NCBI GenBank assembly: GCA_017656145.1 | Contig: JACDOI010000014.1 | Span: 1 to 50,799, forward strand | Direction: 5' to 3' | Length of the DNA stretch: 50,799 nt | DNA from: Bacillota bacterium | GTDB taxonomy: Bacteria > Bacillota > Limnochordia > Limnochordales > ZCTH02-B6 | Part shown: positions 2,409 through 9,182 of the stretch, one piece after another | Numbering within the stretch: the first letter of the stretch is position 1 | Layout: every line of letters starts with the position of its first letter | Made by a program: the position numbers and the translations under genes | Notes under the pieces: model-generated | What the model saw: the letters and a program-made list of their open reading frames with translations, nothing else | What the model was told of the DNA's origin: nothing | Database searches by the model: none

Positions 2409-2747
2409 TATTCCTTCAGACACCTCCGGGGGCAGGTCTTCACTGGGAATGACGTCGGCATTGCCCCGGGGGTTCACCCAAGACCGAGAATCTCTGGTAA
2501 TGCCGTAGTCCGTTTTGGGTGCATCTTTCTTCTTTGAGTTTCCAGGTTTTCTTTTATACCATGAACAGGAATGAATCCGGCCGCAACGAAACACTTACCG
2601 GCGATCCAGGACGCCGAACGGCTTCGAGCGACAAGCCTTCGGGCGGATGGCGGAAGATCCCTTGTCGCCGGGAGGCTTTGGCGAACCATGAAGCCGGTCG
2701 GGAAGTCGGGGAGAGCCTGAGTTTAGGTGCAAAGGGGGATCAGAGCG
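2409..2747. other. divergent intergenic region upstream of the ABC transporter
   Basis: These 339 bp separate the exported-protein gene from the ABC transporter. A T-rich, relatively A+T-rich block lies at about 2515-2560. It contains TTGAGT (2534-2539) and TATACC (2555-2560), but the 15-nt spacing is short for a sigma-A promoter, so I call this only a weak plus-strand candidate. No convincing riboswitch, small ORF or minus-strand promoter was seen. Confidence 0.3.
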
Positions 2748-4451
2748 TTGCGAAGGTTGATGACCATTGGGCTGGCGGTATCCTTGTTGCTGGCGGCCGT
2801 CGGGCCGCTTTCGGCCCAGGATGTCGAGTGGAGCCCCAGGGGGCCCTATGTGGACGAAATTCTTTTACCGATTATCACGGACCAGGAAGCCCAGCTCATC
2901 GCCTTGCGCCGGGGTGACATCCACGTTTATCCCGGTCTTGTCAGTCCGACCCACATCGAGACGCTGGAAGCCGATCCCAACGTCGACATTACGTTGAGTC
3001 CCGGGTTTCACTTTTTCTACCTGGCGATGAACATGCGCCGGGAACCGTTGAACGACATCGTCATCCGCCGCGCGCTGGCGCACGCCATCAATCGGGAGGA
3101 GATCGTCCTCTCTCTGTTCCAAGGCTACGTCTTGCCTTTGGCCGAGTTCGTGCCCCCGGCGTCTCCGTTTTACAATCCGGACACGGATGTTGCCCAGTAC
3201 GATCCCGAGCTGGCCCGGCAAATTTTGGACGACGCGGGGTACCGGGTGGGCCCCGATGGGATCCGGATCAACCCGCGCACGGGCGAGCCGCTGCGCGAGA
3301 TGACGATCTTGACACCGACGTATGAGGTGGCGCCCACCTCGGCCCAGCTGGGGGCCATGATCGCCGAAGCGGCCCGTTCGATCGGCTTGCCCGTGCGAGC
3401 CGAACCGCTTGACTTCAACGTCATCCTTGACCGCATTCAGAACGAGAGCGACGGTGACCGGGACTTCGACATGTATGTTCTGGCCTGGGGTTTGACCCGG
3501 TTCCCGACCCATCTTTACTCGCTGTTCCACTCCAGTTTCGACGTCGACGGCGCGGAAAACACGCCCGGCTTGCGGGATCCGGAGTACGACGCGGCCGCTG
3601 AGAGGGTGTGGACGCCTCGCAATTTGGATGAAGCGATGGAAGCGGCCTACCGGGCCCAGGAGATTTTGAGCTGGCTGCAGCCGTACGTGCCGCTGTACTC
3701 CCGGCCCTACATGGACGCGTTCCGCTCGGATGTCGTCACCGGTTACGTGCCGCACCTTGGCTACGGTGCTGCCAGCAACGTGTACTTTAGCATCTGGACG
3801 CCGCTCAACATCCGGCGGGTCGACCGGGAGCGGGGCGGCACCGTCCGGTGGCTTTTGCCGGAGGAGCCGAGCAGTCTGAACGTTTTGGTGGGCACATCCG
3901 CCTATGACTTCCAGGTATTCGGCTTGGTCTACGGCCCCGGCCTCATCGCGGCGGAACCCGTCAATAACGAGGACTTCCCCTGGGAAGCGGAGCGGTGGGA
4001 AGTGGGCACCTGGATTACCCCTGAAGGCACCGAGGGCACCAAGGTGACCTATTGGCTCCGGGACGACATCACCTGGCACGACGGCGTGCCCTTCACCGCT
4101 GAGGACATCAAGTTCACGATGGACTACTTAAAGGAGCAGCGGGTGCCGAAATACCAGACCACCTGGAGCGACTACAGCCACGCCGAGGTGCACGACGATC
4201 ATACGATCACGGTGTACTTCAACACCGTCAGCTACTGGCACACCTATAACGTCGCGGGCTTCCTCGCCAAACATATCTGGGAGGACGTCGAGAAGTTCGA
4301 CGAGTTTGAGCCGTGGAACGAGCCTCACCCGACGGTGGAAGGGCTGACGAAGATGATCGGCACGGGTCCCTTCGTCTTCAAGGAGTACGTCCCGGGCGAG
4401 TACGTGCGGGTTGTCCACTACGAGGACTTCTGGGCCGGTTTGGATCGGTAA
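2748..4451 (+). CDS. ABC transporter solute-binding protein, peptide/nickel class (SBP family 5), apparently circularly permuted
   Basis: An exported ligand-binding protein for the importer encoded next. TTG at 2748 is chosen because AAAGGGGG lies 9 nt upstream; GTG at 2727 is the longer alternative. Residues 1-24 are a signal peptide ending LSA-Q, with no lipobox cysteine. The domain order is reversed relative to DppA or OppA. The mature protein begins with PYVDEILLPIITDQEAQ, then LNDIVIRRALAHAINREEIV near residue 101 and a YDPELARQILDDAG helix, all features of the C-terminal half of the family. After about residue 355 comes the normal N-terminal half: GGTVRWLLPEEPSSLN (363), WHDGVPFTAEDIKFTM (443) and GTGPFVFKEY (538). 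It stops at EDFWAGLDR, exactly where the family would continue into the segment found here at the N-terminus. Length, 567 residues, is normal for the family. The substrate cannot be read from sequence. Confidence 0.9.
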   Translation: MRRLMTIGLAVSLLLAAVGPLSAQDVEWSPRGPYVDEILLPIITDQEAQLIALRRGDIHVYPGLVSPTHIETLEADPNVDITLSPGFHFFYLAMNMRREPLNDIVIRRALAHAINREEIVLSLFQGYVLPLAEFVPPASPFYNPDTDVAQYDPELARQILDDAGYRVGPDGIRINPRTGEPLREMTILTPTYEVAPTSAQLGAMIAEAARSIGLPVRAEPLDFNVILDRIQNESDGDRDFDMYVLAWGLTRFPTHLYSLFHSSFDVDGAENTPGLRDPEYDAAAERVWTPRNLDEAMEAAYRAQEILSWLQPYVPLYSRPYMDAFRSDVVTGYVPHLGYGAASNVYFSIWTPLNIRRVDRERGGTVRWLLPEEPSSLNVLVGTSAYDFQVFGLVYGPGLIAAEPVNNEDFPWEAERWEVGTWITPEGTEGTKVTYWLRDDITWHDGVPFTAEDIKFTMDYLKEQRVPKYQTTWSDYSHAEVHDDHTITVYFNTVSYWHTYNVAGFLAKHIWEDVEKFDEFEPWNEPHPTVEGLTKMIGTGPFVFKEYVPGEYVRVVHYEDFWAGLDR

Positions 4452-4518
4452 GTCGTGAAGGAGTGCCGGGCGCCGGCGGGGCATCTCCGCTTTCGACCAC
4501 GCCCGGAAGGTCCAAGGA

Positions 4519-4550
4519 CAGGAGGCAGGCCCTGGCGGGCCTGCCTCCTG
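4519..4550 (+). other. strong intergenic hairpin between binding-protein and permease genes
   Basis: A perfect 13-bp stem (4519-4531 with 4538-4550) closes a 6-nt loop with no T tract after it. In many importer operons such a structure protects the 3' end of the binding-protein message and reduces read-through, so that binding protein is made in excess over permease. That role is inferred here. Confidence 0.6.
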
Positions 4551-4632
4551 TGCAGATGTCTCACGGGACAAGGAGAGACTCGTCACTGGAGCCGGCAGGC
4601 CTTGTGTCTTCAGCGCGAAAGGGCGATAGGCA

Positions 4633-5605: not shown

Positions 5606-7093
5606 GTGAACGACGTCCGCAATCCCCGATCCAACCCGCCGGCCGGTCGAGGGCCTGCTCCCCTTGGCCCGTTCCGCCAAGCGGCGACCGCCCGCCGTCC
5701 CGGACCCGTCCGGGAGGTGTGGCAGGAGTTCCGGCGCTCGCCCCGGGGCATGCTCGGGCTCGGGATTTTCCTCGTGTTTCTCTTCCTGGGCCTGGCCGCG
5801 CCGTGGCTGACGCCTTACCATCCGCTGGAAGATCAGTTTCTCGCGGATCGCATGGCTCGTCCGGCGTGGATGCGGTATGTTTCCCGTTACCGCGAGGCGC
5901 CGGTCACCGTGGACCTCTTCCTGTTTGACAACTGGGCCGTCTCCGTCGAGGAAAACGTAGAGACGGAGCGAAGCGAGCAGGACGGCCAGAACGTTCTCTT
6001 GGTGCGGCCCGCGGGCCCGGGGCCGGCCCGGCTCGTTCTGGAACATCGCTTCGAGTACCGGGCAAAACCCCCGGGAACGTTTTTTGTGCAAGTGCCATAC
6101 GGGTTTTCCGGCGGCCCCGGAGCCACCGCCACCGCTGGGCTATGGCTTTCGGCGCCGGACGGTCAAGAGTATGCGCTTTGGACGTCGCGGCGGCTTGGCA
6201 ACGAGGTCCGGTGGACGACCCAGCGGATCGACTCCCGGGACATGCAGCTGAAGATGCGGCTGGGCTTTCGACCGTTCGCCAACCTGGCCTCCGAACTCTT
6301 GCGGGTGCCGGGCGAGTACCGGCTCACGCTCGAAGTGACCTTTGAAGGCGGGCGTGAGGCCGACGCCGTGTTCCGCCTGGGCGAGAGCCGCTTGCGCATT
6401 CCCGGCCAGCTCCACGGTCTGATGGGCACAGACCACTTGGGCGGGGACTTATGGTCGCAGTTCGTCTACGGCACCCGGACGTCTTTAATGATCGGGTTCG
6501 TCGTCGCCGTCATCGCGGTCGTGGTGGGAACGGTGGTCGGAATTGTCAGCGGTTACGTCGGCCGGTGGGTGGATGAGGTGTTGATGCGGCTTGTCGACGT
6601 GTTCATTTCGATCCCGTTTCTGCCCATCCTGATCGTCCTGGTGGCGGTGACGGGCAAGAGCTTGTGGAACTTGGTGCTGGTCATCGGGCTGTTTTCGTGG
6701 ATGAGCGTCGCCCGCCTCGTCCGGTCCCAGACGTTGACGTTGCGGGAGCGGGCGTTTGTTGAAGCCGCCCGGGCCGCGGGTGCCCGACCGGCGTACATCA
6801 TGGTCACCCACATCCTGCCCAACGTGCTTGGACTTGTGTTCGCGTCGCTGGTGCTGTTGGTGCCCAGCGCCATCGTGGCGGAAGCGACGTTGAGCTTTCT
6901 GGGTTTTGGCGACCCGCGGGTCCCAACCTGGGGACGGATGCTGCAAAACGCCCGGGGCTTTGGCGCCTTCGGCGAGCTGGCCTGGTGGTGGATTCTTCCC
7001 CCTGGGCTCGCCTTGACGGTGCTGGCCATGGCGTTCGTATTCATCGGCAACACCCTGGACGATATCCTGAACCGCCGGGGGAAGGAGAGGTAG
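5606..7093 (+). CDS. ABC transporter permease, DppC/OppC type, with large extracytoplasmic insertion
   Basis: The second permease is 495 residues, against roughly 280-310 for typical DppC proteins. After a proline-rich N-terminus and the first helix (about residues 48-70, ending in LTPYHPLEDQ), the family's short loop is replaced by about 175 extra residues (roughly 92-268) rich in aromatic and beta-prone stretches. The canonical fold resumes at GTDHLGGDLWSQFVYGTRTSL (274), and the EAA loop VEAARAAGARPAYIMVTHILPN lies near 386. The insert faces outside, where the binding protein docks. The start is GTG at 5606, with AGGTGAG overlapping the stop of the upstream permease. It is probably one coupled transcript with its neighbours. 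Confidence 0.94.
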   Translation: MNDVRNPRSNPPAGRGPAPLGPFRQAATARRPGPVREVWQEFRRSPRGMLGLGIFLVFLFLGLAAPWLTPYHPLEDQFLADRMARPAWMRYVSRYREAPVTVDLFLFDNWAVSVEENVETERSEQDGQNVLLVRPAGPGPARLVLEHRFEYRAKPPGTFFVQVPYGFSGGPGATATAGLWLSAPDGQEYALWTSRRLGNEVRWTTQRIDSRDMQLKMRLGFRPFANLASELLRVPGEYRLTLEVTFEGGREADAVFRLGESRLRIPGQLHGLMGTDHLGGDLWSQFVYGTRTSLMIGFVVAVIAVVVGTVVGIVSGYVGRWVDEVLMRLVDVFISIPFLPILIVLVAVTGKSLWNLVLVIGLFSWMSVARLVRSQTLTLRERAFVEAARAAGARPAYIMVTHILPNVLGLVFASLVLLVPSAIVAEATLSFLGFGDPRVPTWGRMLQNARGFGAFGELAWWWILPPGLALTVLAMAFVFIGNTLDDILNRRGKER

Positions 7094-7101
7094 GTGCCGG
7101 C

Positions 7102-8094
7102 GTGGCCGAACTGGTCGTTGACAACTTGCAGATGCATTACCGCACCCGCGAGGGCGACGTCCGGGCGGTAGACGGTGTGAGCTTTACCGTGGCGCCGGGC
7201 CGGGCCTTGGGCATCGTGGGCGAATCGGGATGCGGCAAATCCAGTCTCGGGCTCACCCTGCTCCGGTTGCTGCCGGACAACGGACGGGTCGTAGGCGGTT
7301 CGGTCCGGCTGGACGGCGACGACCTTTTGGCTATGGACGAGGAAACGTTCCGGCGCCGGGTTCGCTGGCGGCGTATTTCCATGGTGTTCCAAGGGGCCAT
7401 GGGGGCGCTGAACCCGGTGTTGACCGTCGGCGGCCAGATCACCGAAGCGATCTTGGCCCACGAGCGGGTAAGCTTGGCCGACGCGGAGCGGCGGGCCCGG
7501 GAGCTGCTTGAAATGGTCGGAATCAATCCCGTCCGGTTTGGTGATTATCCCCACCAGTTCAGCGGCGGGATGAAGCAGCGGGCTGTCATCGCCATGGCTT
7601 TGGCATGCAACCCTGAGCTGGTCATCGCCGACGAGCCGACTACGGCCCTTGACGTCATGGTGCAAGCGCAAGTGCTTGAGGCCATCGCGGGTTTGCGGCG
7701 ACAGCGGCAGCTGTCCATGATCCTGGTCAGCCACGACTTGTCGGTCATCGCCCAGATGTGCGACGAAGTGGCGGTCATGTACGCTGGCAAGATCGTCGAG
7801 TACGGGCCGGTCGAAGAAGTGTTCGTGCACCCGAAGCATCCGTACACGCAGGGGCTGACCCAAGCGTTTCCCGACATCCGGGGGGATCGGGCACCCATCG
7901 TCTCCATTCCGGGCAACCCGCCTCATCTTGCCGATCCGCCCACCGGCTGCCGGTTTCATCCCCGCTGTCCGTTGGCGGGCGAGGACTGCGCGCGGCTGGA
8001 GCCGGTGCTTGATGCAAAAGGCTCCCCCAGCCACCGGGTCGCCTGCCACCGGGTGGCGGAGGACGGCAGCGTCGCGGAGGTGAAGTTCGGATGA
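7102..8094 (+). CDS. peptide/nickel ABC transporter ATP-binding protein, DppD type
   Basis: A 330-residue ATPase. Walker A GESGCGKSS is at residues 40-48, the signature SGGMKQR near 154, Walker B LVIADEPTTALD near 173-184, and the switch histidine is in SHDLSVI. The oligopeptide-transporter C-terminal region contains CRFHPRCPLAGEDC (from about residue 283) and a later cysteine in RVACH. Some characterised OppD and DppD proteins hold a 4Fe-4S cluster with such cysteines. GTG at 7102 is chosen over longer in-frame options because the upstream extension lies inside the permease gene and GGAGAGGTAGG precedes GTG. The next gene overlaps by ATGA. Confidence 0.94.
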   Translation: MAELVVDNLQMHYRTREGDVRAVDGVSFTVAPGRALGIVGESGCGKSSLGLTLLRLLPDNGRVVGGSVRLDGDDLLAMDEETFRRRVRWRRISMVFQGAMGALNPVLTVGGQITEAILAHERVSLADAERRARELLEMVGINPVRFGDYPHQFSGGMKQRAVIAMALACNPELVIADEPTTALDVMVQAQVLEAIAGLRRQRQLSMILVSHDLSVIAQMCDEVAVMYAGKIVEYGPVEEVFVHPKHPYTQGLTQAFPDIRGDRAPIVSIPGNPPHLADPPTGCRFHPRCPLAGEDCARLEPVLDAKGSPSHRVACHRVAEDGSVAEVKFG

Positions 8095-9182
8095 CCCCGG
8101 CGGACGTCTTGCTGGAAGTACATGGGCTGGTCAAGCATTTCCCGTTGCGGCGGGGGTTGCGGCAGATCTTGCGCGGGGAACGGCCCGCGGTCCGGGCCGT
8201 GGACGGCGTCAGTTTTTCCGTCCGGCGCGGCGAGATTGTGGGCTTGGTGGGCGAGTCGGGTTCGGGCAAGACGACGACCGGGCGAGTGCTTCTTCGCCTC
8301 GAAGAGCCCACCTCGGGCGAGATCGTATTCGACGGCCAGGAGATTACCCGCCTGCCGCAGGCCGGCATGACCCGCCTGCGGCGGCGCATGCAAATCGTTT
8401 TCCAGGACCCGTACGACTCGATGAATCCGAATATGGACGTGTTTGGAATCGTTGCCGAGCCGTTGCGCATTCAGCGGCTGGCAATGGATCGACACGAGTT
8501 GGAACGGCGCGTCATCCAAGCCCTGGAAGCTGTGGAGCTGGTGCCTGCCGAGCACTTCATGCGCCGGTATCCGAAGGAACTGTCGGGCGGCCAGCGCCAG
8601 CGGGTGGCCATCGCCCGGGCACTGGTGTTGGAGCCGGACTTTCTTGTGGCCGATGAGCCTGTATCGATGCTGGATGTGTCCATCCGGGGCGGCATTTTGC
8701 GCATCTTGCACCGCCTCGTTCGGGAGCGGGGTCTTGCCCTCTTGTTCATTACCCACGACCTCGCGCTGGCCCGCCACTTTTGCGACCGGGTAGCGGTCAT
8801 GTACTTGGGGCAAGTGGTGGAATTGGCGAGCGCCGATACCCTCGTTCAGCGCCCGCACCATCCGTATACGCAGGCGCTCATGGAAGCGGTGTTGTCGACG
8901 GACCCGCGGGTAAAGCGGATCCGGGTCGGGTTGAAGGGCGAGATTCCCAATCCTGCCGATCCGCCTGCGGGTTGCCGCCTGCATCCCCGTTGCCCGCTGG
9001 CCACCGACCGCTGCAGGACGGAAGCCCCCCAGCTCATCGAGTACGAACCCGGCCACTTTGCCTCCTGCCACTACGTCGAGCGGGCTCTGGAGCGGCTCGC
9101 CGAGCCGCCGGTTGGTAAGAATAATCATAAGCAATTCTCTGAAAAAAACTTGCCGAACCCAGCCGGATCTGATAGACTCTAG
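8091..9182 (+). CDS. peptide/nickel ABC transporter ATP-binding protein, DppF type
   Basis: The partner ATPase, 363 residues, overlaps the previous gene by 4 bp (ATGA), which indicates translational coupling and heterodimer assembly. Walker [10 protein letters not shown] is at 54-62, the signature LSGGQRQR near 164, Walker [13 protein letters not shown] follows, and the C-terminal [14 protein letters not shown] plus SCHY cysteines match the DppD partner. The last ~23 residues (from VGKNNHKQF) are not part of the family. They are encoded by A-rich DNA unlike the rest of the gene, and this DNA contains the promoter of the next gene. Confidence 0.94.
9150..9178 (+). promoter_or_regulatory. predicted promoter of the cold-shock gene, inside the end of the upstream ATPase gene
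   Basis: TTGCCG (9150-9155) and TAGACT (9173-9178) are 17 nt apart in the A-rich tail of the DppF-type gene. The start near 9185 would leave a leader of about 60 nt before the cold-shock gene. Confidence 0.5.

Follow-up and report, generated by a model that had tools for sequence, protein, structure and literature searches.

A natural circular permutation in a cluster C substrate-binding protein encoded with an Opp-type importer

The window, by which we mean the whole 50,799-nucleotide stretch of DNA analysed here, carries at positions 2748–4451 an open reading frame of 567 residues with TTG as its start codon. Its product scored 240.8 bits against the Pfam family SBP_bac_5, well above the curated cut-off of 32.4, and the only other Pfam match with an E value of up to 1 was a 17-residue match to DUF1421 (E 0.12). 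The best NCBIfam model for the protein was Opp4A, with a score far under its curated cut-off. The gene is followed by genes for two permeases and two oligo_HPY ATPases (Table 1), a combination that identifies an importer operon of the Opp/Dpp/App type and is conserved in relatives; for the OppC-type permease the best NCBIfam model was Opp4C, its score likewise far under the curated cut-off. A strong hairpin separates the substrate-binding protein (SBP) gene from oppB, and hairpins of similar strength were found at the equivalent place in five relatives. Hairpins between SBP and permease genes commonly cause more of the binding protein than of the permease to be made. Upstream, on the opposite strand, positions 296–1774 read as a methyl-accepting-chemotaxis-like gene. 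In four related loci (L061, L062, L101 and L106), the operon adjoins an open frame of ~1030–1165 aa starting with an HLHVHS motif, which by eye resembles PHP/DNA polymerase III alpha.

Table 1 Features of the SBP gene and the downstream importer genes in the window.
Feature	Position	Strand	Basis
Shine-Dalgarno-like AAAGGGGGA	2731..2739	+	8 nt 5' of TTG; sequence
Signal peptide LRRLMTIGLAVSLLLAAVGPLSA (cleavage before QD), signal-peptidase-I type, without lipobox Cys	2748..2816	+	sequence
Residues 28–355, usual C-terminal half of a cluster C SBP	2829..3812	+	Pfam profile 141–353; AppA 211–451
Linker RRVDRER, residues 356–362, joining old C-terminus to old N-terminus	3813..3833	+	permuted-family alignment
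Residues 363–567, usual N-terminal part	3834..4448	+	Pfam profile 5–144; AppA 86–210
GC-rich stem-loop, 15-bp stem, between SBP gene and oppB	4518..4551	+	-39.1 kcal/mol, z -4.85
OppB-type permease, 321 aa, ordinary TM1–TM2 loop	4633..5598	+	Pfam BPD_transp_1 5.2e-41
OppC-type permease, 495 aa	5606..7093	+	OppC_N 34–81, BPD_transp_1 308–491
Predicted extracytoplasmic OppC insert, residues 82–264, between TM1 and TM2	5849..6397	+	loop-length comparison
OppD-type ATPase	7102..8094	+	ABC_tran, oligo_HPY
OppF-type ATPase	8091..9182	+	ABC_tran, oligo_HPY

The initial annotation, made from the sequence of the window, had proposed that the SBP is circularly permuted, with a normal length and a breakpoint at one continuous point of DppA/OppA. 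We compared the order of its segments with the family profile and with solved structures. Residues 28–254 aligned with positions 141–353 of the SBP_bac_5 profile, and the C-terminal part, scanned alone, aligned through its residues 51–203 with positions 5–144. The canonical segment order of the family is thus reversed, the C-terminal half standing before the N-terminal half, and the protein is a permuted variant instead of a standard member. Against AppA (1xoc), residues 437–564 matched 86–210 and residues 32–281 matched 211–451; because these AppA stretches abut exactly, the breakpoint lies between AppA 210 and 211. The comparison with DppA (1dpp) agreed on this breakpoint, with residues 398–563 matching 35–206 and residues 28–168 matching 205–343. 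We then rotated the protein in silico by placing residues 356–567 ahead of 25–355. The rotated protein gave a single continuous SBP_bac_5 match (59–442 on profile 7–353; 255 bits versus 240.8 unrotated), and BLAST against canonical relatives returned colinear matches (182 bits versus 169 for the best unrotated piece). Since the halves are complementary and match different parts of the family model, they reflect a circular permutation and not a duplication. The data from these comparisons bore out the proposed permutation and its breakpoint, and the length is also normal, in the same class as that of AppA and DppA/OppA. The cluster C paralogues in the source genome had the canonical order wherever both halves were reported. 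When a profile of the permuted family was searched against the PDB, the matches were separate or partial stretches in canonical order, and no solved structure with the permuted order was seen among them. Judged by its sequence, the product of 2748–4451 is a cluster C (SBP_bac_5) binding protein in which the canonical C-terminal half comes first and the N-terminal half second.

We further explored the distribution of the permuted protein in genomes from the class and the phylum of the source organism. It was present in 19 of 73 genomes of the class, in two of which it is cut at a contig end, and in 26 of 398 genomes in an even sample of the phylum. The two samples, which share five genomes, together gave 40 genomes from ~27 genera and 11 families (our own count), at 42–80% identity. 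Across 41 aligned permuted sequences, the junction and linker were short throughout and more than 80 residues were invariant. The aligned homologues also carry hydrophobic AxA-type leaders immediately ahead of the ..GP.VDEI.. segment; the leader of one homologue (L117) is atypical. In two draft genomes the gene is broken at residue 281 by contig ends (the ends of L072 and L074 and the start of L073), perhaps owing to near-identical copies. The source assembly is itself a 116-contig draft, and an assembly or rearrangement artefact in the contig, or a decaying gene, might account for the swapped order. However, the same order recurs in all 40 genomes, at identities down to 42%, in open frames that carry signal peptides and stand in conserved operons; this excludes a local assembly error and leaves the explanation with next to no probability. 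A scan of viral contigs for further homologues found none. A scan of genome contigs matched L050 only; since the scan used peptides taken unchanged from the window protein as patterns, it gives no measure of rarity. Matches were found in 2467 plasmid records; each of the 15 listed was assembled from two or three pieces, and none of these 15 contained a single colinear full-length piece.

Phylogenetic analysis was performed with the permuted sequences rotated back. Forty of them fell into one clade with support of 100/100, in a tree for which the program warned of long branches, and their sister group consisted of long canonical SBPs (support for the pair, 100/98). The OppB tree was split in the same way. 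Identity between the permuted and canonical families is only ~28%, so the fine alignment is uncertain. These trees suggest that the permutation arose once, at an ancient date, in the ancestor of the operon. Most simply, it would have proceeded by tandem duplication, followed by fusion and then trimming. Tandem pairs of permuted SBP genes precede oppB in three genomes (L103, L105 and L110). In G313 (L105), the permuted operon is immediately preceded by a canonical one with an SBP from the sister group, and in G290, G183 and G216 it directly follows canonical opp genes. The upstream canonical opp genes of L105, L107, L108 and L114 are on the same strand as the permuted operon. The tandem genes and upstream canonical operons fit, without proving, an origin of this kind; no duplicated or fused intermediate gene was found among the genomes sampled.

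The order SBP–oppB–oppC–oppD–oppF was retained in every locus with enough flank. The permuted protein is accordingly placed to serve the type I ABC importer whose genes come next, in which OppB and OppC would form the channel and OppD and OppF the ATPases. In two genomes, G007 (96% complete) and G225 (85% complete), SBP_bac_5 matched nothing but the two halves of the permuted gene. With no other SBP_bac_5 protein in G007, the permuted one very probably serves the importer there by itself. Its leader and the genome content of the source organism point to a soluble location: the protein would leave the cytoplasm through Sec, probably lose its leader to signal peptidase I, and be free in a diderm periplasm. 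The Omp85 proteins encoded in the source genome make a diderm envelope probable, and in such an organism the lack of a lipobox is nothing unusual. We also considered a relocation of the lipid anchor as a reason for the permutation and rejected it, because, of 13 canonical paralogues read in the source genome, most likewise have no obvious lipobox (by eye), L011 being one that has it.

In DppA, R383 and D436 grip the two ends of the bound dipeptide (PMC12136057). The alignment of the family profile places R383 on the invariant Thr189 and D436 on a gap; these charged residues are not conserved, which makes the ligand class uncertain. The Asp is likewise missing in the alignment from AppA, which gave the best PDB match and binds oligopeptides; an oligopeptide is also the probable ligand here. 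A less favoured but still sizeable possibility is a non-peptide ligand such as an oligosaccharide, metal chelate or opine, with an operon that is Opp-like by descent only. The loss of both DppA residues (PMC12136057), the binding of sugars, nickel and opines by other cluster C members in the PDB, and the strong conservation of the family-specific motif TPTYEVAPTSAELG would all suit such a ligand. The AppA match, with the same Asp missing, argues instead for a peptide, as do the NCBIfam best matches Opp4A for the SBP and Opp4C for OppC; in addition, inspection of the neighbourhoods by eye revealed no recurring sugar-catabolic cluster beside the operon. The lost DppA residues, together with the chemotaxis-like gene on the opposite strand upstream, could also indicate a sensor or other periplasmic protein that stands beside the Opp operon and has lost its role in transport. 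Such a role seems very improbable, given that the permuted SBP is always the first gene of a full oppBCDF set, that OppB forms the same clade, that G007 has no other SBP_bac_5 protein, and that no chemotaxis gene was seen by eye next to the operon in any other neighbourhood listed. Taken together, the data make it highly likely that the gene encodes a genuine and functional, naturally permuted cluster C binding protein of an Opp/App-type importer.

We next considered the consequences of the permutation for the fold, where our statements on fold, hinge and docking are drawn from homology. In cluster C structures, domain I is built from three segments, domain II is inserted in domain I, and domain III completes the protein; in AliD, domain I comprises residues 29–63, 191–296 and 583–617 (PMC11192437). 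In oligopeptide-binding proteins, the two chain ends are neighbours within domain I (PMC10924461). By correspondence with these structures, residues 28–355 hold the rest of domain I, domain III and a return to domain I, and residues 363–567 hold the start of domain I, domain II and a return to domain I, ending in the new C-terminus DFWAGLDR. The cut therefore appears to fall in the second of the three domain I segments, after the canonical chain has returned from domain II and before it leaves for domain III. Opening the chain within domain I and sealing the old ends would keep both domain I–III crossovers. The initial annotation had held that the hinge connectivity would be rewired; with the cut inside domain I, the published domain boundaries lead us to expect that both crossovers persist, and this claim is left unsupported. 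The protein would thus adopt a normal two-lobe, three-domain fold that retains both crossover strands and differs in its chain ends alone, a short linker sealing the old ends and the new ends opening in a domain I loop, and the ligand would be captured by the usual Venus-flytrap closure. An AlphaFold2 model built from two sequences only (the window protein and L050) reached a pLDDT of 40.6 and a pTM of 0.27 and was set aside.

The OppC-type permease has ordinary membrane parts, with ~183 extra residues between TM1 (centre ~59) and TM2 (centre ~305). The TM1–TM2 segment spanned 155–249 residues in all 31 permuted systems with a readable OppC; in complete canonical OppCs it was 8–9 residues in most, 33 in one and 76–77 in two. 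A search with the insert matched 18 genomes of the class, 17 of which have the permuted SBP; in the other, G041, the permuted gene was undetected. Outside the closest relatives, identity to the window was typically ~25% in the insert versus 65% in the core, indicating faster evolution of the insert, which matched nothing in Pfam or the PDB. In a model of the pneumococcal Ami importer, the corresponding loop of AmiD (residues 64–99) contacts lobe 2 of the binding protein; the large extracellular domains of that permease belong to AmiC (PMC11192437). The extra OppC domain is predicted to face the binding protein, and it accompanies the permutation in the sampled systems. One explanation is that the permutation alters opening dynamics or docking and that the OppC domain supplies a compensating contact, as the insert in 31/31 permuted systems and the modelled contact of the AmiD counterpart with lobe 2 (PMC11192437) would allow. 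We consider this unlikely: both traits changed on one branch, so their association counts as a single event; the new chain ends are part of lobe 1 and not of lobe 2; and the crossovers look unchanged. It is similarly doubtful that the permutation of the SBP and the placing of the main docking domain on OppC instead of OppB mark a distinct Opp branch in which the interface was re-engineered in one change.

Circular permutation is widely used in engineering binding-protein biosensors. Natural permutation is rare in ABC SBPs: in open-licence PMC papers we found one described family, TpMglB-2 of cluster B, and none for cluster C, which does not prove priority. The permutation reported here appears old, conserved and widespread within the large peptide/nickel family, and in at least one genome it concerns the only protein of this kind. 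It offers a natural experiment for finding out which connections of the chain flytrap closure and docking depend on, and sensors with new termini could be built on this natural scaffold. It also cautions that, where family annotation relies on two partial domain matches, a reordered fold may go unnoticed.

The precedent closest to this case comes from cluster B: TpMglB-2 (Tp0684) of Treponema pallidum, assigned to cluster Bc / type Ic, is likewise a naturally permuted ABC SBP, has its permutation in common with a homologue family, and was shown to keep its binding function (PMC4990184). The window protein matches SBP_bac_5 and lies outside cluster Bc / type Ic. TpMglB-2 has a cluster B sugar fold, arose by an unrelated event and is a lipoprotein, whereas the protein described here belongs to cluster C and has no lipid anchor. 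The permutation of TpMglB-2 adds a fourth hinge crossover (PMC4990184); none is expected to have been added here. With AppA of Bacillus subtilis (1xoc) and DppA/OppA, the permuted system shares all family segments, the length class and the oppBCDF partners, but its halves are swapped at AppA 210/211 with a short linker fusing the old termini, and compared with DppA the R383/D436 ligand pair is not conserved. The closest canonical sister group, the long SBPs L036–L042 from relatives without the permuted system, shares the gene order but has the canonical order of halves, in open frames of 621–755 aa. In these sister operons OppB is enlarged (open frames of 416–494 aa) and OppC is ordinary (329–351 aa); several of the sister canonical operons (L120–L126) have a second OppD–OppF pair. 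The pneumococcal Ami importer (AmiACDEF) is also of the Opp type with an enlarged extracellular permease domain facing the binding protein; there the large domain belongs to AmiC, on the OppB side, with AmiD limited to a coil of 36 residues (PMC11192437), whereas the large domain of the permuted system is on OppC, in the same TM1–TM2 loop as the AmiD coil.
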